Shown here one piece after another: positions 18,045 to 63,889 of a stretch of DNA of 64,000 nucleotides. The DNA lies in the NCBI GenBank assembly GCA_026929865.2, contig CM049416.1, positions 18,127,001 to 18,191,000 on the forward strand, in the 5' to 3' direction. The notes below the pieces were generated by a model. It was not told where the DNA came from and made no database searches. It worked only from the letters and a program-made list of their open reading frames with translations. A program made the translations under genes and the position numbers. Source of the stretch: Hyperoplus lanceolatus. Its lineage: Eukaryota > Chordata > Actinopteri > Uranoscopiformes > Ammodytidae. Position 1 is the stretch's first letter; each line of letters opens with the position of its first letter.

Positions 18045-21000
18045 TCAAACAGCAATCTCTTTGGGCAGCTCTTGATACTTGATGAGGTAGTACGGGTAGC
18101 ACTGACAGCTATCAAAAACTACAAACATGGTGGGCTTGTCCATGTTGTCCACACAGGCATCATAGAGACAATGCTTCTTTGTCTTGTGGCTGAGTGGCGG
18201 CGGCCGGCGGTAGATGCCTCTTCCGACACACACCTTCCCCACCAGTACTTTGGCCAGGAACATGTGGCGGACCTTGTCGGGATTGCCCATGGTGGAGAAC
18301 CTGTCAGAGAAGGAGGCGCTGGTGGCAAAGTAGGAGCCATAGCCGAGGGATGTCCCATTAACGCCGGCCATACGAGGGTCGAAGTTGTTGTGGCAGATGT
18401 CCTCCGAGGCCTCTCTGGCCGTCCCGTGGAAGAGATGTCTCTCCAGGGGCTCCTTGGACTTGGTGTTGTGATGCTTCTGCATGTACACCTTGTGCCTGTC
18501 ATAAACACAGTGTGTTTAGAGATGTAGCTTGTGTATTTTGTACCGTTTCCCACATCCTTAGACTTTACTTTACATTTTCTTAAACACGATTAAGGAACGA
18601 TAGTTTACGTTTACAATTTATGATATGATGGATATGGTTGGTCATGAAACGATGAACAGATAATAGCAACATCTGTAATCCCATGAAAAGACCCAAACAA
18701 CTTATTAGTTACTCCTCAAACCTCAATGATTTTTGTCTATAGCTCACCCCAGCCCAAGTCAAATGTGTTCCAAATTAAGATGTGAATATTAGTTTAACAT
18801 AAGTTAAATATCATTTGTTGGGAGTGGACTTTTTTCAGTGATACATTTGGTGCTCCAGTGACTATTCCCAGCAGCAGGACAGCAAGAGATAAACTACACT
18901 TCCCATGTTTACTGCAATGAAGGAACATATTACCGTCACATGTGCATTTCACTGGTTTTCAACATTGCGAGAAAAAAAACATTAACAATTCAAACCCACT
19001 AAGTAACTCTATCATTACCTTTGGTACTTGTCCCAGTGGAGGAGGTTCTGGACCTGCTGGATGGAGATGATGTCCACCTTGGTCTCAAACAGGCTGGCGT
19101 AGAAGAGTTCCTGGACCTTCCTGTGGGCTTGTGTGCCAGCTGGGACGTCCATCAGAATGTAGTCCTGCTCTAAGGCCGGACACCACACTGGAGGATACCA
19201 GGAGCTGAAAGCCTCCAGAGGGTTCACGCTGAAGTTAGCCCCTGGTGGTTCACCAACAGAGTCAGACTGGATAGCTGTCCTGTGTCTGGGAGGAGAGGAA
19301 GTTTTTCTTTAAAATTATTAATATTATTTTCAATAATCGGAACAAAAAATCTTCTAAAGTACAAACTTCCCATAAGTATTCTTAGCACTACTCTGAAGGT
19401 AAATACAGAATGATTGGTTTATATGTTGTTAATTGTCAGATTTATAAGACATTTTCTTCCTAAAAAACATGCTGAAAATGCATTTTTAAGACCTGTATGT
19501 AGTATTTTTGGATGTATAAAATGTATACATTAACAACAGATCTAGGATACTGCTTACTGCAGGTGAAGCTGCATTGAATCAGGGGAGCGGTAGACGGGTC
19601 GACAGCGAATCTCCCTCTGGAACCCTGTGGTGACGTTGGTCTGAGTCATGTTGGTGAAGTCCACCTTGTAATCCTGTTCGCCAATTTTGAAGGAACACGT
19701 GGGCTTCTTCTCACTCATGTTCTTTAACAGCCAGCTGGACTTATCCTACGAAGCAGAACCAATCAGCAATCAGCAAACAGCATTTTTAAATTTTTACTGT
19801 ATTTGCAAGTTAAATAAAGTGGTAAATGTCTGATGACGAGTTGTGACAAGGGATTAGGGTTGCAAAGGGGTGTAAAGTTTCCGGTAAATTTCCGGAAAGT
19901 TTCCATGGGAACTTATGTTCGGGAATTTGGGAATATTCAAAATTGGGAATTATAGGAATGAACTAAATGGCTGTAATTAAAATCTGTTTCATATCCAAAC
20001 ATACATCTGAACATATAAACACTATGTTTTGTCATAGGCAGTGTAGAAAAGGCCCCAAAGTTATAGGTTTACAGTGTTTGATATTCCTTACAGTGTGTTA
20101 AGTTGTATTTTGTTTAGTGTGGGTAGCTGTCAGTTAGGGTGGTGACGTCAGTCGGCTGGAGAGTGTGTATTGTAAGTTTCTTTTCTCCTCTCGCTCCGTC
20201 AGATGTCCGAGCGTGTATGTTGCCGCAGTGAGCGATCATTCTACAGTTTTAACATGTCTATTGGACTTATTGGAATCACCCGTGTGTGAGTAAGGACATG
20301 CAGTCACGATCGCCTTTATAATTTATAGTTTATGCAAGTTTAACGGCCCGATACGAGGGTCGCAATAACAGCTGTTGTAACGGCTCGTCGCGAGCGAAAC
20401 CTTTTTTGTTCTTTTCCCGCGAGCTGTGTGCTGCGGTGTCTGTAAAGAAGGAAAGAAAGAGCTAACTATACTCCTCCTCCAGTCTCATGCTTATAATTTG
20501 ATGCTTTTGGCCATAAGTGGTGTTCTGACACCTCTGAAGTGAAACCAGTGATACAAGCAAATCAGTGCGGTAAGCTACATTCACCAGTTTCCTCCGCTAC
20601 AGGCAGACATCCACCATACAATTAAAAACATTACATTTGATTTATTTGTAAGTAGAACTTTACCAAGTTGTGATTATTTTATGAACAATCAATAATTTCA
20701 CCGAACAACAAAAAGATTAATGTTGAGTAAAATATTACTCATCCGTGCGTCTGATCCCACCCATTCAATGAATTAAGTAAAATGCCCTACTTTTGCAACC
20801 CTACAAGGGATATTTAAATTATTAAAAAGAGGAAACCTTCACCTTGCTGTACTCTTCCCAGCTGTTGCTGTTCCACCAGTAGACTCGCAGTTTGCTGGGA
20901 AAGAAAGGGTTGTCCCCTGGACTGTCAGAATTAGCGAGGCGTCTCACCGCAGAATACTTAGATTGGTCGTCCAACTCCACAAAGTTCAAAGTGTAGTTGA

Positions 21001-23897: not shown

Positions 23898-26800
23898 TCA
23901 GCTGTACTCGACAGCTTTCACAGTCACTGCCAACGGTTCAATTGTCAGAGGACACTGCGGACAACCCACCCAGAAGTACGGAAAGACTTTCTCGGTGATG
24001 GCGTGCTTGAAGGTGTAGATGAGTGTGTTGTCATGCGAGTCGTGGAAAGACACGCGGCCCTTGTCGCAGTCCAGCAGCACCCTGATCCTCTGCGGGTTCC
24101 TCTTCGGGTTAAGCCTGGTTAAGGGCGAGGTGCCTGCGAAGTACATCTTGTGGTAGAAGTACACGCACAGGTAGCCATTTTTCAGTACAGAGGACACCTT
24201 CGTTTTCCGCTGGACGGATTCTTTGGCCACACCCACGACCCATGCTGTGTTGTCTCCCACGGTGACGTCCCAGGAGCGCTTGCCTGAGGTGAAGCCCTCG
24301 TTGCCTAGCACCCCAGAGTCGGGATCGTACCTCTCGGGGTTGTCGGGCAATCTCTGCTTCTCATCGCTATCGAGAAGGCTGGTGAGGTCGTCTGACAGGA
24401 TGAGCCACGGGGCCGCGGTGTTAGGGTCCAGAGTCACCGGAGCTGAAGAAAACATGGCAGAATTGTCAGTCAGCTGTCTTCGGTTAAGGCAAAAACATTG
24501 TTTTTTTTCAACCAACGGTACATTTTTATGAGTTTTACTTCCATATCATGTCTTCTTTCATACTGGTATGAATAAATGGCCCAAAATGTACAGTTATGCA
24601 TTTATTTCACTATACCTTGTCTTTTATACAACCATCTTTAACGGCCATTCTCTAACCATAGTTTTTACTATACTCTGAACCAAACATCGCAACTTTTAAA
24701 ATCACTATTCATCTGTATTGTCTCGTCTTAATCACACATTTTTTTCTCCACCACAGGAATATATGAAGCAACTAAGGAATGCACTTCAGCGTCACCTGAG
24801 CCCGAGGTATGTACTCACTGTATTTGACGATGTTTTGCATCTTCTCCCATAAACGAAACGCCATAGAGCCCACATGTTTGGCCACATCTATGAGCGCTCC
24901 GGGAGCCATGACTGGATCTTCAATTGGGCTGCTGGCTCTGCAGGAAGCACAATTAGGGACTTTACTTATCTTAGTATAACATTTTAGAGTGCTTTGTTAA
25001 AAAAAAAGGACAAAAAACATTAATGGCTTAAAACATTTTAAAAAAACATACACATAACACATATACAATACATGAGCATAAAACAAGAACACATGAGCAA
25101 GCATATACAAATAATGGCATATAAGGGTTTTCCACCCGTGTTTAGTTCGGTTGAAACGCTCAGTGCCTCGCCTTCAGCATCTTTCAGCAGGTGTGAATAC
25201 AGCAATCACACTCGGGGGGACCAAACAAACGCCCGAGACCCAGCTGAAGAGGTGTCTCGGTGTTTCCAAACGCACTCTGCTGCAGTTCGTTTGTGGTGTG
25301 AATTTGTCCGGACTCGATCCGACCCAAATGAAGGAGGCACTGTGCCTTTTCTTTCTTTTCTTTTTAAATAAATAGCCGTCAGCTTCACATTATGGGAAAG
25401 TTTTGTTGTTGCCATTGTTAGGACGATAAGTTGTGGTTTGACCGGGAGCCCAGAACAATATATTACATTTGATCGAGAGGACGCAAAAACATGCTGAATG
25501 TGTTCAGCGATCAGATGAAGGAGAGGGGAGCGTCTCTCCACAGTGCCAACAGGTTCACGCTGCGCAAGAAATGTGTGTTTTTATTTTGCTTCCCATGTAC
25601 GGGACCGTCAATACCCCGTGTCAGTTTGGAGCTGAACTGCGCCGACCCAGCTGATACACAGCTTAATCAGCTGAGTGTCAGCTTGAGCCTATTCTTCTCG
25701 CGTGACGCGCGTCCAGCACCAAAACTACAGTAAAAATGATATTTCACATTGTAGGCTACACGCCACATAAGTTGCATTGACATAGGGCTACATATTATAA
25801 CCATATGAAACAACAATAATCCGATGTTTTTCCTCTTTATTTATAGGTTAGATGTTGGCCATTTTATTATTTTTAACCCCATATTATGTCAATGATATAT
25901 GTTTCGTAGTTTTAACTTCGTGCTTCCTGTTTCTCTCCACCCCAGAATGTCTGTCCAATGAATGAATAACCTCAGATCACGTGTGGTTTTGCTTCGTAAT
26001 GCTGGTTCACTTGCAAAAGGGGCAATATGAAAGTGGACCACACCAAACAAAAAAAATCAAAACTCCATTTGGTCTGGACCAAAGCAAGTGAACTAGCGGA
26101 CTTTCCCAGTGTGAATACACCCTTAAACAAATGGCATGTAAAAAACCTAACACAAGTAGCATATAGACACAGATAAAAGTGCATGAGCGGTTGAGCATGA
26201 AACAAATTAAAACACAAAATAATTTGAACAAAGACAAAAGCACCTATCACATACATACATGTTGGTATAAAAAAAGAAAAGTGAACCTTACCTTGCTAAT
26301 GTCCCCTTGCATTTCTGGAAAAAAGGGGAAAATTCACAAAAAAATATTTCTATATAATATTTACTTTCAAGTATCTTTGCATATATTCAGACATTCACAA
26401 ACTTACATAAAGGACAGAGATGCCCTCCAAGGCAATTTCCTCCTCTAAGGCATCAATGGATTCAGACACGGACGTTATATCTCTGGTAATTTCCTCAATC
26501 TTCCGCATCATCGCTCGCCTCTTCTGCTCTTGCTCCTCCCTCAGCTGCGCCATCTTTGAATCTTCTTCGGCTCGGAGGAAAGCGTGAAGCTTTTCAAACT
26601 CCTCGCCAATTCTTTTCTCCACATATTGAGCCTGGGTCTGCGATCGAAAACCGTGTAAAGCATAACTTGGAAAAGCTCCTGCAAGACCTCTATACATTTT
26701 TTTTTACCAAGTATCCTAGTACTTCACCTGGATGTGTTCCACGGTGTCCTCATAGTTATCCTTCATTTTGCGAAAAGCGTCCTTCTTCTCCTGCAGAGAG

Positions 26801-27840
26801 CTGAGGGCGGCCTTCATTTTCTCCTACATAATGAAGAGAAAATTAATTTGGCACGTTGAAAAGAAACTTGACTTTTTAAAAACTACGGCTGGCAACATCC
26901 TTGAACGTAACAACTCATCAGAGCTAGTAAGGGGACTTAGAGAGACTAGAGAAGAGTATTGGGGCCAAGGGAGAGAAAAAAAAATGTCATTAATTATGCA
27001 GTATATGCACGTTGAAAATAAAAGCTCCGTGCTAAAGTTGGAGAGATGTTGACAGATCTGAACTCCAGGGATCACTAACTCATAAGCACACATAACACAA
27101 GGTAGAAGGTTTTGAATATTTTTTGCTTAGCTGTTGCCCTTTGTAGACTGTCCCTGTGCTATCATTTCACAGCCCTCTGTACACAGAGAGCAATGTTATT
27201 GTGGGAATCTGTCATTATCTTTTGAACTTTACCACAGTGTTTAACTGTTGAGTTTATTCTTGAAATGTTTGCTTTATTCTTGAAGTGCATAATGAAAAAA
27301 CAAACTTCCTCCTCTCATTTTCTTCCCGTGGCCCTAATACTCTTCTGCAGAGAGACAGCCCCAAGCTGTTCATTATTCCACCACAGTTCCGACATTTTAT
27401 CTTAAAGGTTAAGTATTTACCTTCACATCTACTACAGCCTCATTAACTGGGCAACAGTCGTGCTGCTTGTGCTTCCTCGACGTGTGGCAAACCACACAGA
27501 TGGGCATCTGATCCGAAAGGCAAAAGAGCTTTAGCCTCTCCCCATGGTGAGGGCACGTCTCCCCCGGATCACAGTACAGTTCTTCCCCCCTCTCCTCCAT
27601 GTCCTCACTGTCCTGGATGTAGGACTCACACAGGTTCTTGAGGGTGAGGCTTGGCACGGGGTCGTCCACAGACTGGCTTCTACACAGGGGACAGTCACGG
27701 CTCTGGCCCCGAGACCAGTACTCCGCTAGACAGGGTGCACAGAAGCTGTGGCTGCACTTGAGGACCACAGGGTCCTTGAAGATATCGCAGCATATGGGAC
27801 AGGAGAGGTCCACCTCTTGGAACGACAGCCTGCCTGCCAT
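23898..27840 (-). CDS. TRIM35/A33-like E3 ubiquitin ligase (RING, B-box, coiled coil, PRY-SPRY)
   Basis: Coding exons in transcript order: 27840-27421, 26823-26728, 26631-26407, 26314-26292, 24937-24819, 24442-23898. The 96, 225, 23 and 119 base middle exons give the usual TRIM layout, and the frame stays open for 475 residues. The RING spans residues 14-53 (CPIC, then CSHSFCAPC, then CPLC). B-box type 2 spans 96-127 with ligands C96, H99, C107, C115, C118, H124 and H127. A coiled coil covers about 140-250, rich in Glu/Lys (EEQEQKRRAMMRKIEEI). PRY-SPRY fills the last 180 residues (LDPNTAA, SWDVTV, LLDCDKG, FPYFWVG). No zinc ligand is missing. The RING should recruit an E2 and SPRY should bind a target; the target cannot be read from sequence. 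Fish have large TRIM35-like families named zinc-binding protein A33-like, TRIM35-like or TRIM69-like, so no symbol is given. It follows the PARP gene head-to-tail on the same strand. Confidence 0.88.
25128..26126. mobile_element. Probable DNA-transposon remnant in a TRIM intron
   Basis: The left edge (TAAGGGTTTTCCACCCGTGT) and the inverse of the right edge (TAAGGGTGTATTCACACTGG) are related, and both arms carry GGACCAAA-type blocks. A partial relative is at about 37378-37560 (CTTTCACACCTGCCGTGTTT). No target duplication or transposase was found. Borders are approximate. Confidence 0.45.
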
Positions 27841-28510
27841 CCTGACACCACCACCACTGCTGTTTTCCTCTGAAAGTAAGTAACTAATATTTTATTTATA
27901 AAGCCCTTTTTAAAACAAAGCCGTTATAAAGTCCTTTACATAGTACACAAGTATACTAAAAAGAATGTGTACATTAAAAAATAATAAAAAAAAACTATAC
28001 CCAAATAACAATATAAAACAGTGGAAGAGGAGCCAAACAGATTATGAAATTGCATTAAAAAATACTGTAAAATTGAAGCGCAAAACCAGTTGACAATTTT
28101 ACAATAAAAGCACAAGAATAGACAGATCAGACAGAACAATCCACAGCATACAAAATACAAACCAACTAAATGGCTTAGATCTATAAAAACACTTTGCCTA
28201 CAAAGTGAAAGTAGGGCAAAGGTGTTGGCACTGACCAAAGGCCTTGCATATACTCACACATATACTCACACACATGCTGAACTATGTAGTCTATTTACTT
28301 CACACTATGGAGAATACTGAACACACAATAGTCATAAAGGATTTAAGTGCATATTGATTCACTGTCAGACTCATAAGAAACATAAGAACAGATCGTACCT
28401 GACAACCAAAAGTCTTGTGACGGGTAGACGTGCTTGGCTTAGAGTTGGGCATTTCCTTCTTCCTGTTACAATGAGTCACCCAAAGGAGGCGGAGTCTTAG
28501 AGGTAGAGCC
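27841..28510 (-). promoter_or_regulatory. 5' UTR and possible first exon of the TRIM gene
   Basis: The start-codon exon probably extends to 27869, where the minus strand reads a pyrimidine-rich acceptor (ACTTACTTTCAG). A good donor (GTCAG|GTACGA) at 28399 would close a non-coding first exon reaching to about 28500. The intron between is AT-rich with no recognised element. Only splice-site sequence supports the upstream exon. Confidence 0.4.

Positions 28511-50468: not shown

Positions 50469-50557
<89 letters not shown>
50469..50557. repeat. ATCT tetranucleotide repeat, left part
   Basis: Pure ATCT repeat continuing from the LINE 3' tail; interrupted by the Tc1 insertion and resumed at 52184. 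Confidence 0.95.
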
Positions 50558-52181
50558 CACTCAACAAAAATATAAACACTTTTGTTTTTGCACCCATTTT
50601 TCATGAGATGGACTTAAAGATCTAAAATTCATTCCAGATACACAATATTACCATTTCTCTCAAACATTGTTCACAAATCTGTCTAAATGTGTGATAGTGA
50701 GCACTTCTGCTTTGCTGAGATAATCCATCCCACCTCACAGGTGTGCCACATCAAGATGCTGATCTGACATCATGATTAGTGCACAGGTGTGCCTTAGACT
50801 GTCCACAATAAAAGGCCACTCTGAAATGTGCATTCTTTTGCTTTATTGGGGGTCTGGGGACTCAGAACCAGTCAGTATCTGGTGTGACCACCATTTGCCT
50901 CATGCAGTGCAACACATCTTCTTCGCATAGAGTTTATCAGATTGTCAATTGTGGCCTGTGGAATGTTGGTCCACTCCTCTTCAATGGCTGTGCGAAGTTG
51001 CTGGATATTAGTGGGAAGTGGTGCATACTGTCGTATACGCTGGTCAAGCACATCCCAAACATGCTCAATGGGTGACATGTCCGGTGAGTATGCTGGCCAT
51101 GCAAGAACTGGGACATTTTCAGCTTCCAAGAATTGTGTACAGATCCTTCCAACATGGGGCCGTGCATTATCTTGCTGAAATGTGAGGTGATGTTCATGGA
51201 TGTATGGCACAACAATGGGCCTCAGGATCTCATCACGGTATCTCTGTGCATTCAAAATGCCATCAATAAAATGCACCTGTGTGCCTGTGTCCATAACAGA
51301 TGCCTGCCCATACCATAACCCCACCACCACCATGGGCCACTCGATCCACAACATTGACATCAGCAAAGCGCTCACCCACACGACGCCACGCACGCTGTCT
51401 GCCATCTGCCCTGAACAATGTAAACCGAGATTCATCCGTGAAGAGAACACCTCTCCAATGTGCCAGACGCCATCGAATGTGAGCATTTGCCCACTCAAGT
51501 CTGTTACGGCGACGAGCTGGAGTCAGGTCAAGACCCCGATGAGGACGACGAGCATGCAGTTGAGCTTCCCTGAGACGGTTTCTGACAGTTTGTGCAGAAA
51601 TTGTTTGGTTATGCAAACCAATTGTTTCAGCAGCTGTCTCAGTGGCTGGTCTCAGACGATCTTGGAGGTGAACCTGCTGGATGTGGAGGTCCTGGGCTGG
51701 TGTGGTTACACGTGGTCTGCGGTTGTGAGGCCGGTTGGATGTACTGCCATATTCTCTGAAACACCTTTGGAGACGGCTTATGGTGGAGAAATGAACATTC
51801 AATGCACGAGCAACAGATCTGGTTGACATTCCTGCTGTCAGCATGCCAATTGCACGCTCCCTCAATGCTTGTGGCATCTGTGGCATTTTGCTGTGAGACA
51901 AAACTGCACATTTCAGGGTGGCCTTTTATTGTGGACAGTCTAAGGCACACCTGTGCACTAATCATGATGTCAGATCAGCATCTTGATGTGGCACACCTGT
52001 GAGGTGAGATGGATTATCTCAGCAAAGCAGAAGTGCTCACTATCACACATTTAGACAGATTGGTGAACAATGTTTGAGAGAAATGGTAATATTGTGTATC
52101 TGGAATGAATTTTAGAATGAAAGTCCATCTCATGAAAAATGGGAGCAAAAACAAAAGTGTTACGTTTATATTTTTGTTGAG

Positions 52182-52183
<2 letters not shown>
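50558..52183 (-). mobile_element. Nearly complete Tc1-family transposon
   Basis: 1626 bases with inverted repeats of about 280 bases (CACTCAACAAAAATATAAAC at the left, its inverse at the right) and TA at each side (50556-50557, 52184-52185). The transposase lies on the minus strand between the repeats. The last base of the right end differs from the perfect inverse. The sharp match between arms suggests a fairly young copy. Confidence 0.92.
50872..51901 (-). pseudogene. Tc1 transposase, one frameshift
   Basis: The first frame (51901 down to 51263) covers the paired helix-turn-helix DNA-binding region (LRERAIGMLTAGMSTRSVAR; STISRLQR) and the first catalytic Asp (LFTDESRF, about residue 156). 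The second frame (up to 50872) carries the rest: QQDNARPH with the second Asp, and PIEHVWD with the Glu 34 residues later, so the triad is DD34E as in Tc1. The C-terminus RRRCVALHEANGGHTRY is complete. The two frames meet at an indel near 51285, just after VMVWAGICYG. No other stop was seen, so one indel is the main visible lesion. Confidence 0.88.

Positions 52184-52273
<90 letters not shown>
52184..52273. repeat. ATCT tetranucleotide repeat, right part
   Basis: Continuation of the same ATCT tract on the far side of the Tc1 insertion. Confidence 0.95.
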
Positions 52274-57665: not shown

Positions 57666-58814
57666 AGGTCACATATTATGCTAAATGCACTTTTTAAATG
57701 TGTTCTAACATATCCATGGGTCCACGGTGTGCCTAGAGACTGCCAAAATATAAAAAAATATCAATCTCTCCTTTTCTCACTCTCCCCCTTTCTGAAAACC
57801 CTCCCCCCCAATATACTCCAGTCAGAATTCTCGCCAACTATAACGTCACAGTCGGCACAGCCATTTCCCCTTATTTTCTTTATATGTCCATGCTTCCCTC
57901 CCACATTAGTAACCAGAAACTTCCAAGTGCAGTATTCTATGATAACTCCCCTCCCCCCCATTTCTTATTGGTCCACTGCCCCAAGATCCTCTGGAAAATT
58001 TTACGAGCGACAGCCATGTTGTTTTCCCCGCTAAGCGCCGCGTTTATAACGAGACAAAGCCTATGGAACTACTTGTGTAGTAATTCCATCGGTGAAACTA
58101 AAGAGAATCTCCTCAATGGTTGTTTGGCTGTTATTTACCTAGTGTAGCATGTAGCTTCGGGAGTAGCACCCAACGTTTGCTTCTATTACACTAACTTAGC
58201 TTTCCCATTGCAGTTTAATAATGCCTCGTTTTTAACACCACAAAGGATGGGAAGTTATTTCTGTAGAAACCAAATGTGAGGCTACTGTTTTCACTTGTTT
58301 TAAATCGTCTGAGTGTGATTTTTAGCCGTTAGCGCACATGTAGCTTCGGATGTAGCATCCAACGTTTGCTTCTATTACACTAACTTAGCTTTCCCATTGC
58401 AGTTTAATAATGCCTCGTTTTTAACACCACAAAGGGTGGGAAGTTATTCCTGTAGAAATCAAACTTTGAAGCTACTGTTTTCATTGGTTTTAATCATGTC
58501 AGGTCATGTCAAACTGTTCAAAGTATGGCTTCGCTCCGGGTAAACACTGTGTTCGCAGTCACGCAGTGTCTCTCTAGTATCACGAAAGCACGGCAGAGAC
58601 GGTGGGAGGCCCGGCAGAGAGGTGGGAGGGGCCAGCCAAATTGCAGGCAGCGGACACCAATATAGGTCATCCGGAGATCAGAGGAACATCAGGGTATAGA
58701 GGCTTGCTACAATAAATGATCTGAACGGGTTTTTCCGCAAACATTTAAAAAAATAAGTATTAGGGACTATTTAGACCATATAAAATTGACAGCAAAGTGC
58801 ATAATATGTGAGCT
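57666..58814. mobile_element. TTAA-flanked DNA transposon with internal duplication
   Basis: Ends AGGTCACATATTATGC and, inverted, AGCTCACATATTATGC, flanked by TTAA (57662-57665 and 58815-58818). Kolobok and piggyBac both use TTAA; the AGG start would suit Kolobok. Inside, a block starting CATGTAGCTTCGG is duplicated in tandem at about 58148 and 58337 (unit near 190 bases, few differences). No transposase frame found. Confidence 0.8.
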
Positions 58815-61545: not shown

Positions 61546-62139
61546 TAATTCTGGGCTTACACTACACAACTTTTCACGCGATTTGACAGTCGCAGACAAT
61601 CTTCCACTGTTGGACTGAAATCAAAGGAGTCTTGCTGGAGTTGTGGCGTGCACGTAATCTCAGTCGTTTGGTGTAAGGTGATCATCTGACCCGATTTCAT
61701 TCAGTCTTTTTCCCGTCTTGACGTTCCAACATTATCAAACAGGTTTGAGATTATCGTTAGTCTTAGGGTTTGGCTCAAGCGAAATGACGTGAACACTGTC
61801 ACACTCTCTCCAGCACCAAACACGACGCAGGAGGAGCGGCATTAGTCGCGACCTGTGTCCGGCTGGGAGGCACTTTTTTCAGACACTTTTACCTAGAAGC
61901 CTCGGCTGGAGAACCAGGCTGTCACGCGAAACTTTAACACTTTACCGTCAAATACAGGGTTAGGAGTGAGTTATTTGGGGACGAGATCAGCAAATATATT
62001 TGGTCAAATAACTACAGGAGGTCCCCCGCTCAGAATATTGAATTAACTTTTTTTTAATTAATTAAATATAATCACAATCGCGTTTGCAGCTTTTAACGTG
62101 ATCATGCATGACACATAGCCTATGTGATGAGGGCATATA

Positions 62140-63727
62140 CAGTGCTGTGTGAAAGTTTGTGAACCCCTTGAGCCTTCTGGAATTGTATTTATGTTAACCA
62201 TTATTAATTAATTTTTATCAATACCAGTATTTTTTATATGAAATAACAGATGTTTGTTTATCAATTCAACATTTTTCTTTTCCAGAAATCAACTGTTAGA
62301 ACAGATAAAACAAATTATTTGACAAATGTTGTATCTGCAAAAGTTTGTGAACCCTGAGCTGCATTGCTTGAATCGAACAGGTAAACACAATCAGATGAGC
62401 CAAATTGAGTCATGAAATGGACCAATGTAGTGAGAGATCTTTAGGGAAGAAATTGGGCGGCACTAGATAAAACAGAGATCAAACCAGGTCAGTTTAGGCT
62501 CACCAAAGTGAACCCATACAGGTCAGACATGCTAAAAGTGAAAACAATCTCAGATGATCTCAGGAATAGAGTTGTGATGCTGCACATTTGTCTGGGGACA
62601 GCTATAAATTAATTTAAAAAAAGTTTGAGCTCCATCGGTCCACCGTGAGGCAAATCATCTACAAATGGAAAGCTTTAAGAGTGACTGAATATCTGCCTAG
62701 AAGTAGACTTCCTTAAAAAATATCCATAAGCACCACAAGAAACGTTATTTTTCAGTTAAAAGCCAACCCAAACATTACATCTAGTGATTTGCAGACCTCT
62801 ATTGCAGCATCTGGGACAGATGTGCATGGTTCCACAATAAGAATAAGAATAAGTCAACATTCAAGGGAGGGTTGCTGAAGAAGCCTCTGCTCTCAAAAAA
62901 GAACAACAGTGCTTGTCACAACTTCGTCAGAGAGCACCTGGAGATACCTGAAGTATTTTCTGTGGACAGATTTGTCCAAAATTTGGTCACAACCAAAACC
63001 GCCATGTTTGGGCAAAAACGCAACTCTGCCTACCACCAAGAGAACCTTCTCCCAAGTGAAGAATGCTGGTGGCAAATGATCTGCAAATCTCCAGATGTAA
63101 TGTTTGGGTTGGCTTTTACCTGAAAAATCCATTTTCTTGTGGCGCTTGACGATATTGTTTAAGGAAGTCCACTTCTAGGCAGATGTTAAGTCACTCTTAA
63201 AGCTCTCCATTTGTAGTTGACTTGCCTCACGGTGGACCGATGGAGCTCAATCTTTTTTTATATGAATTTATAGCTGTCCCCAGACAAATGTGCAACATCA
63301 AAACTCTATTCCTGAGATCCTCTGAGATGTTTTCCCCTTTGAGCATGTCTGACCTGTATGGGTTCAGTTTGGTAGGCCTAAACTGACCTGGTTTTATCTC
63401 TGTTTTATCTAGTGCCGCCCAATTTCTTCCCTAAAGATCTCTCATTACATTGGTCTATTTCATCACTCGATTTGGCCCACCTGATTGTGTTTACCTTGCT
63501 CGATTTAAGCAATGCAGCTCAGGGTTCACAAACTTTTGCACATAGAACATTTGTCAAATAATTTGTTTTAACAGTTGATTTCTGGAAAAGAAAAATGTTG
63601 AATTGATAAACAAACATCTGTTATTTCATATGAAAAATACTGGTATTGATAAAAATGAATTAATAATGGTTAAAATAAATAAAATTCCAAAAGGCTCAAG
63701 GGGTTCACAAACTTTCACTCAGCACTG
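62140..63727. mobile_element. Fold-back Tc1-family element with duplicated 5' half
   Basis: Inverted ends CAGTGCTGTGTGAAAGTTTG / its near inverse, flanked by TA (62138-62139, 63728-63729). The inverse similarity runs on for about 650 bases per arm (62140-62797 and 63079-63727), far beyond a normal Tc1 terminal repeat. Both arms include the first part of a transposase gene (left arm reads LHRSTVRQIIYKWKA-like residues). Between them, 281 bases carry the next part of the transposase on + (KKPLLSKKNN, VREHLEIPE, AMFGQKRNSAYH). The catalytic C-terminal half is absent. The element cannot encode a transposase. Confidence 0.85.
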
Positions 63728-63889
63728 TAGTTGTTTATACACCCAGTCCATTTTACCTGCTAAAAAAAACCGTTTCATTTGAAATCCCTTTTAATCCCTG
63801 GTAGCAGAATTGGAAATAATATTAATTTCAAAAGGAATCTAGTTGTAGTGTTGCAATATGAGACCCCTTGTCTTTTCAAAATCTCAGTC

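Follow-up and report, generated by a model that had tools for sequence, protein, structure and literature searches.

We report that the element at positions 62138-63729 on the plus strand of the window (the whole 64,000-nucleotide stretch of DNA that was analysed) very probably belongs to a non-autonomous fold-back family that arose from a Tc1 transposon of the IR/DR group, carries two left ends, has been amplified to about 800 places in the genome and has arms that exchange sequence. For long-armed fold-backs, the descent from ordinary DNA transposons usually has to be deduced from the finished element. In the present case, the fold-back, the junction formed at its birth, relics of the ordinary lineage and a later subfamily are all preserved in a single genome, and both the origin and the exchange between arms become testable step by step.

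Architecture of the window copy and its transposase remnants

The inverted arms at 62138-63729 are real, and the same junction occurs at 39 other loci. Without the TA on each side, the element proper spans 62140-63727, which are exactly the limits given by a first-pass annotation that had described a Tc1 element folded back on a copy of its own 5' half. The left arm (62138-62795, plus strand, 658 bases) comprises the left terminal region and the 5' part of a decayed Tc1 transposase gene. In the centre (62796-63079, plus strand, 284 bases), the same transposase reads on through the region of the first catalytic Asp and then stops short, as seen when the family consensus is aligned with two relatives described below, L062 (to its position 995) and L081. 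The right arm (63080-63729, minus strand, 650 bases) repeats the left end and the 5' half in inverted form, and is not the right end of the full-length relatives. The arm-centre junction falls between 63079 and 63080, and the window copy shows one mismatch to the 23-base junction consensus, which covers 63070-63092 on the plus strand.

BLAST aligned the two arms at 91.0% identity over 659 columns with gaps counted; 602 of the 648 aligned pairs were identical, with 12 gap columns and a K2P distance of 0.075. The arms of about 650 bases that the annotation had reported thus hold good, and its centre of 281 bases has to be corrected to 284. The inverted match scored 923 bits, compared with a best score of 42.8 bits in 100 dinucleotide shuffles of the element. 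The arms diverge more towards the centre: they differ by 3-6% in the outer 400 bases and by 12% in the innermost 130. The arms make up 1308 of the 1592 bases, as in fold-back DNA transposons with long arms; classical FB elements carry internal tandem repeats in their arms. A TA is present at each outer edge and, on inspection of the sequence, none is present at the inner junction. The TA dinucleotides at both outer edges let the whole be read as a single insertion. The annotation had named, as a pattern that would speak against its reading, a pair of Tc1 copies inserted head-to-head with separate TA borders; no such pair is seen in the window. We therefore rejected two separate Tc1 insertions as an explanation, given that the arms lie inside one TA-flanked unit and that the junction recurs at 804 places.

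In Tc1 elements of the IR/DR group, each end contains a pair of direct repeats with a spacing of some 165-190 bases. The window copy has the same arrangement. At its left end, an outer direct repeat (62152-62166, plus strand), which is a putative transposase site, is followed 188 bases inward by an inner one (62340-62354, plus strand), both of repeat family D3. At its right end, the inner repeat (63522-63536, minus strand) and the outer repeat (63701-63715, minus strand), both of family D4, are separated by 179 bases.

Remnants of two DNA-binding domains were found, both scoring below the curated Pfam cut-offs: the first helix-turn-helix, HTH_SB, with a stop inside (62594-62686, plus strand; E 8e-7; 29.1 against 43 bits), and the second, HTH_Tnp_Tc3_2, which spans the left arm into the centre (62738-62860, plus strand; E 9e-6; 26.3 against 31.5 bits). 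The codon of the first catalytic Asp, in the motif WTD, lies at 62969-62971 on the plus strand. In the consensus of the six older copies, 39 residues of the centre, including LWTDLSKIELFGHNQNRHVW, align to Sleeping Beauty with E 1e-8, and the Asp region of the younger consensus, in which a stop directly follows the Asp, does so with E 8e-8, both values being for a two-sequence database. The window copy's own centre matched the catalytic part of Sleeping Beauty weakly (E 0.05), the window piece gave a weak match to 5unk in the comparison with Sleeping Beauty-type proteins (E 0.15), and no Pfam family was found at a meaningful E in frame 0 or frame 1 of the window centre. A piece of Sleeping Beauty itself matched 5cr4. 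Judged by these alignments, the left arm and centre together are the decayed 5' half of a Sleeping Beauty-like Tc1. The annotation's decayed N-terminal half on the plus strand agrees with the helix-turn-helix remnants. Its statement that the sequence turns round before the catalytic motifs applies to the second Asp and the Glu, which are missing from the fold-back, and not to the first Asp, whose region is present. The longest frame beginning with ATG in either subfamily consensus has 74 codons; since neither consensus has a long frame, the founder was probably unable to make its own transposase.

The genome contains many Tc1 elements, and a second Tc1-like element of a different family lies in the window at 50556-52185 on the minus strand; its inverted ends are 95% alike over 282 columns, and its HTH and DDE_3 matches are split over two overlapping frames. 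In the window, a 157-column unit also occurs twice in direct orientation (58148-58493), its copies being 93% alike and 33 bases apart, and there are minus-strand fragments of a PARP catalytic domain (18048-18515), a PRY-SPRY domain (23901-24545) and a RING/B-box protein (27412-27891; TRIM-like). These protein fragments and the wealth of Tc1 elements point to a fish as the probable host.

Genome-wide copies and relatives of ordinary layout

Searches of the 807-Mb genome with the 23-base junction pattern, allowing up to two mismatches, found 401 + 403 = 804 places, and the reversed control found none. The 27-base tip pattern (up to one mismatch) occurred at 763 + 748 places and a 33-base pattern confined to the centre (up to three mismatches) at 391 + 394 places, again with no match to the controls. 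On contig C1, 23 of the 26 exact centre hits lay within 100 bases of an exact junction. Most of this family's sequence is thus in fold-back form. We then read 40 loci, including the window copy, which were the best-scoring of 1824 first-look candidates, and all 40 contained the junction. This choice of best matches, together with a query extended 21 bases past the junction, biases the sample towards young and intact copies. Both ends could be located in 39 copies, of which 34 have TA on both sides, the target of Tc1/mariner elements, and the 100-base flanks of different copies showed no mutual match at E 1e-5. The junction at 804 places, the TA borders and the unmatched flanks indicate that the fold-back form itself was mobilised, which is the outcome that the annotation's proposed junction search had been meant to reveal. 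Segmental duplication was rejected as the source of the copies read, their flanks being unlike.

Thirty-four copies span 1588-1623 bases. Among the first 100 tips listed, from contig C1 and part of C2, there were 32 facing pairs, of which 20 were spaced at 1593-1616 bases, five were shorter and seven longer, so that 12 of the 32 lacked the 1.6-kb spacing. Five atypical loci (L075-L079) were all fold-backs bearing an insertion or a deletion. The suggestion that the element is an intermediate on the way to a hairpin MITE was not supported: the fold-back is an amplified end product, with 20 of the 32 tip pairs at full length, and for L079, a derivative without a centre, the junction search found a single place in the genome. 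In the passages cited here, MITEs are described as usually shorter than 600 bases (PMC3573991), and the consensus sequences of the present family measure 1614-1615 bases. MITEs are non-coding, mobilised in trans and present in many near-identical copies; in the present family, neither consensus has a long frame, 804 junctions were counted, and the mobilisation in trans is putative.

Several further arrangements were observed. Another centre-less locus, L078 (G000:C2:17290850-17291600), is a 510-base deletion derivative in which 49 bases of one end and 457 bases of the other arm are kept. At L029 (G000:C2:13795500-13799800), two fold-back left halves stand face to face with two junctions and 2220 bases between their outer tips, forming a rearranged or double fold-back. 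Five old-type tips, of the CTG and TAG classes, lie inside 25 kb at G000:C1:425324-450170. A third tip class, CAGTGTAGTGTG, accounts for eight of the 100 tips listed and is seen in old copies, L006 and L009 among them, at the right end. An 18-base tip pattern had no match in viral contigs. The tip search of prokaryote contigs gave four exact matches against about seven expected by arithmetic, and we took these as chance.

To place the fold-back among Tc1 elements, we used a protein search that returned 150 scored matches of 17225 candidates, and compared 30 loci cut from these with the fold-back. L062 was the only one of the 30 that matched along positions 1-954, with 69% DNA identity. It is 1657 bases long and has an open frame of 314 residues with all three catalytic motifs; in a self-comparison, its two ends agree in the 30 bases of the tips, counting the TA, and in an inner repeat of 22 bases, and are otherwise unlike. 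The fold-back consensus matches L062 forward from 21 to 995 and then in reverse from 688 to 21, and matches the 3' half of L062 only at the tip and the inner repeat. With the 3' half of L062 as query, 390 first-look candidates were obtained, 40 were scored and two (L080 and L081) were fetched. The match between L081 and the fold-back extends over 870 columns (positions 109-951) with 84.4% identity; beyond it, L081 has an ordinary 3' half, and no left tip turned up in the fetched locus. L080 matches the fold-back in two blocks, 79% and 85% identical, with an internal gap between them. To judge from these alignments, both appear to be old remnants of this lineage in which the normal layout is preserved. 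The existence of rare relatives with ordinary layout and the reverse match to the left half of L062 imply that both ends of the fold-back are left ends and that the parental 3' half is missing. The reverse match to L062 688-21 also bears out the main part of the annotation's proposal, that a Tc1 became a fold-back through an inverted copy of a Tc1 5' half; this half may be that of the same copy or of a sister copy. An exact-pattern search of the genome for a parent continuing past the junction found no place, both times that it was made. As read from the aligned relatives, source and product overlap at the junction by about 1 base, which suggests end joining or a template switch.

These relics also bear on the age of the decay. 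In one stretch, L080 is shorter by 2 bases than both L081 and the fold-back, and the latter two also have one stop of the old consensus in common. Of the two stops common to both arms, one is also present in L081 and the other is absent from the family consensus. The frame shift and the stop common to L081 and the fold-back suggest that the decay probably predates the fold-back, whose founder, on this comparison, was probably frame-broken already.

Subfamilies, probable exchange between arms and proposed origin

The 34 full-length copies fall into a young group of 28, with a mean pairwise identity of 97.9%, and an older group of six, including the window copy, with identities of 94.6-96.1%. 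The differences between arms and between groups are distributed unequally along the arm. Twelve arm-specific sites are common to both subfamily consensuses (73 and 398-649), and 11 of them are in the inner half. Eleven subfamily-specific sites, by comparison, are changed in both arms (8-324, 589 and 635), and nine of them are in the outer half; three fall in the first 13 bases, and the others at 80, 156, 165, 219, 273, 324, 589 and 635. At four crossed sites the young left arm resembles the old right arm and the young right arm the old left, and a further 27 sites lie outside both main patterns, changes other than those named so far being confined to a single arm. L081 or L080 polarised eight of the 11 subfamily sites: the young state was new in both arms at seven and the old state was new at 156, with L062 disagreeing at 589 and 635.

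Distances and trees give the same picture. In the outer half, the young left and right arms are 3.0-3.3% apart, which is less than the 6.8-7.1% that separates either of them from its counterpart in the old group. In the inner half, the young arms are 8.1% apart, above the same-arm distances of 5.4-7.4%. A tree of the outer half, built from 12 of the 34 copies, placed the young arms in one clade (support 97/96) and rejected grouping by arm (p-AU 0.005); the inner-half tree of 12 of the 34 copies grouped the sequences by arm (92/96), and grouping by subfamily was not rejected (p 0.13). This mosaic, arm-specific within and subfamily-specific towards the tips, points to gene conversion between the arms.

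We also looked for exchange within single copies. Among the 28 young copies, 13 new states were present in both arms of the same copy, compared with a mean of 4.5 and a maximum of 12 for mismatched pairs, and none of 500 shuffles reached 13. The same-copy states at 9, 165 and 219 are either the old-subfamily state or recurrent in several copies, and may have been inherited in sublineages. Clearer signs of exchange are states that are new to one arm and appear in the other. The new left-arm pair 339/340 occurs also in the right arms of two young copies (L013 and L027). The new right-arm state at 269 occurs also in the left arms of L016, L017, L033, L035 and L040, for which repeat mutation may serve as an alternative to exchange. 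In the window copy, the same rare C-to-A change, which creates a stop, is found in both arms; this state is present in one of 34 left arms and two of 34 right arms. Within the young group, arms of the same copy and of different copies are almost equally distant (3.04 against 3.30% in the outer half, 8.05 against 8.15% in the inner half), which indicates that exchange within copies since the burst has been limited. On these patterns, the two mirror arms seem to have kept exchanging sequence. The exchange, which the sites above show in part, mainly affects the outer half, so that both tips can change together.

Selection could account for the likeness of the outer arms if the ends were kept the same as functional tips, without exchange. 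Three of the 11 paired changes do lie in the first 13 bases, and the new young tips resemble those of L062. However, the other eight are spread from 80 to 635, the 339/340 and 269 states cross between arms, and sharing within copies exceeds the mismatched-pair control; we consider selection as the sole cause unlikely. A separate question is whether the fold-back form is an advantage, by which a dead element switches both tips together and so tracks a change in the available transposase. With the same left end copied on either side, one arm would be able to repair or convert the other. On this view, the young subfamily would owe its tips (CAGTGTCGTGCG or CAGTGTTGTGCG) to a simultaneous change of its two ends towards the tip type of L062, after which it would have multiplied. 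We regard this idea as speculative and rather doubtful.

With regard to the origin, the aligned copies and relatives show one founder, in which about 955 bases of a Tc1 left half were joined to an inverted copy of the first 658 bases of such a half. We suppose that a broken right end was repaired by copying from a left end, the short identical tips being common to both ends, and that two unfinished copies were then joined with the overlap of about 1 base. The authors of a study on Galileo propose, in the passages cited here, that the second end of that element was repaired from the first over a tract longer than the tip (PMC3573991), and by analogy we infer that end repair of this type may have formed the Tc1 fold-back. 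The product could then have been mobilised in trans by a related Tc1 transposase binding the outer and inner repeats of the left ends. This transposase is putative: the young tips resemble those of L062, and L062 is only 69% identical in DNA.

A two-copy origin also has to be considered, in which two sister Tc1 elements were oppositely oriented, right end towards right end, and lost both right halves in a single deletion; the remaining left ends, of unequal length, would then have jumped as one composite unit. L081 polarises 10 arm-specific sites, sites 73 and 478 being excluded, and the right arm is derived at eight of them and the left at two, with L080 or L062 disagreeing at 398, 475, 609, 620 and 649. 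Two unequal source copies would explain this bias. In both subfamilies, the inner arms are about 8-9% apart, the junction overlap is only about 1 base, as in end joining, and L029 shows that facing copies of this family occur. However, adjacent sister copies and a deletion are needed, which are more steps than one repair event. The frame break and the one stop of both arms are also found in L081, and thus do not discriminate between a one-copy and a two-copy origin. On balance, we hold the two-copy origin to be possible, if somewhat on the improbable side. It is practically inconceivable, on the other hand, that the structure is an assembly or cloning artefact from a read turned back on itself. 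Palindromes are a known type of artefact, but the window arms are 7% apart, and the number of junctions, the unmatched flanks and the TA at both ends of 34 of the 39 copies led us to reject this explanation. Repair of a broken Tc1 right end from a left end, of the same copy or of a sister copy, is our preferred reading.

Folding and comparison with known systems

The predicted fold of a transcript of the window element has 610 pairs between the arms, an MFE of -1061 kcal/mol and a longest unbroken helix of 96 pairs, compared with an MFE of -364 to -459 kcal/mol for eight window stretches of the same length. The annotation's expectation that any transcript through the element could form a long double-stranded RNA is thus sound as a prediction of folding energy. 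About 800 copies of a 1.6-kb near-palindrome would also have a large potential to give rise to double-stranded RNA and to instability driven by hairpins.

Fold-back elements are already known, and the present family is a well-resolved Tc1 variant. It resembles Sleeping Beauty-type Tc1 elements in its TA target, CAGTG tips, direct repeats 179-188 bases apart, remnants of HTH_SB and Tc3_2, and WTD motif. Unlike them, it has arms of 650-658 bases and lacks the second Asp, the Glu and a separate right end. Tc4 of Caenorhabditis elegans is said to have been described by Yuan et al. in 1991 as having an 'unusual fold-back structure'. Tc4 and Tc6 of this species are fold-backs that measure about 1.6 kb and consist of two long inverted arms on either side of a short middle; the ends of Tc6 are Tc1-like, and the target site of Tc4 differs. 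The present family is alike in size, long arms and short middle. It differs from that structure in that its arms correspond to the left end of an IR/DR Tc1 together with the 5' half of the transposase gene, and that relics of its lineage with ordinary layout are found in the same genome. In the titles and abstract openings of the open-licence literature, we found no Tc1 fold-back family in fish.

Tetris, a foldback of Drosophila virilis, is reported in the passages cited here to have three structurally complete copies, with no coding copy found (PMC4079207). The present family is likewise a fold-back with no conserved frame and apparently non-autonomous, but is found with about 800 junction places and with related full-length elements. 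Bari-derived MITEs are also non-autonomous derivatives of the Tc1 superfamily that multiplied. For these, the cited part of the report proposes simple internal deletion (PMC4877112), whereas the fold-back contains an inverted copy. Galileo, a P-superfamily element of Drosophila, has tips that are 98-100% alike within a copy, and its copies without transposase outnumber the nearly complete ones; its ends are proposed to have grown by taking in internal sequence during the repair of one end from the other, and exchange between copies is proposed as well, according to the passages cited (PMC3573991). The two-TIR elements of Galileo, so far as those passages describe them, are similar to the present family in their long inverted ends, in a majority without transposase, and in the proposals of end-from-end repair and exchange. 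By contrast with Galileo as described there, the Tc1 right end appears to have been wholly replaced here, and one junction accounts for the copies read.
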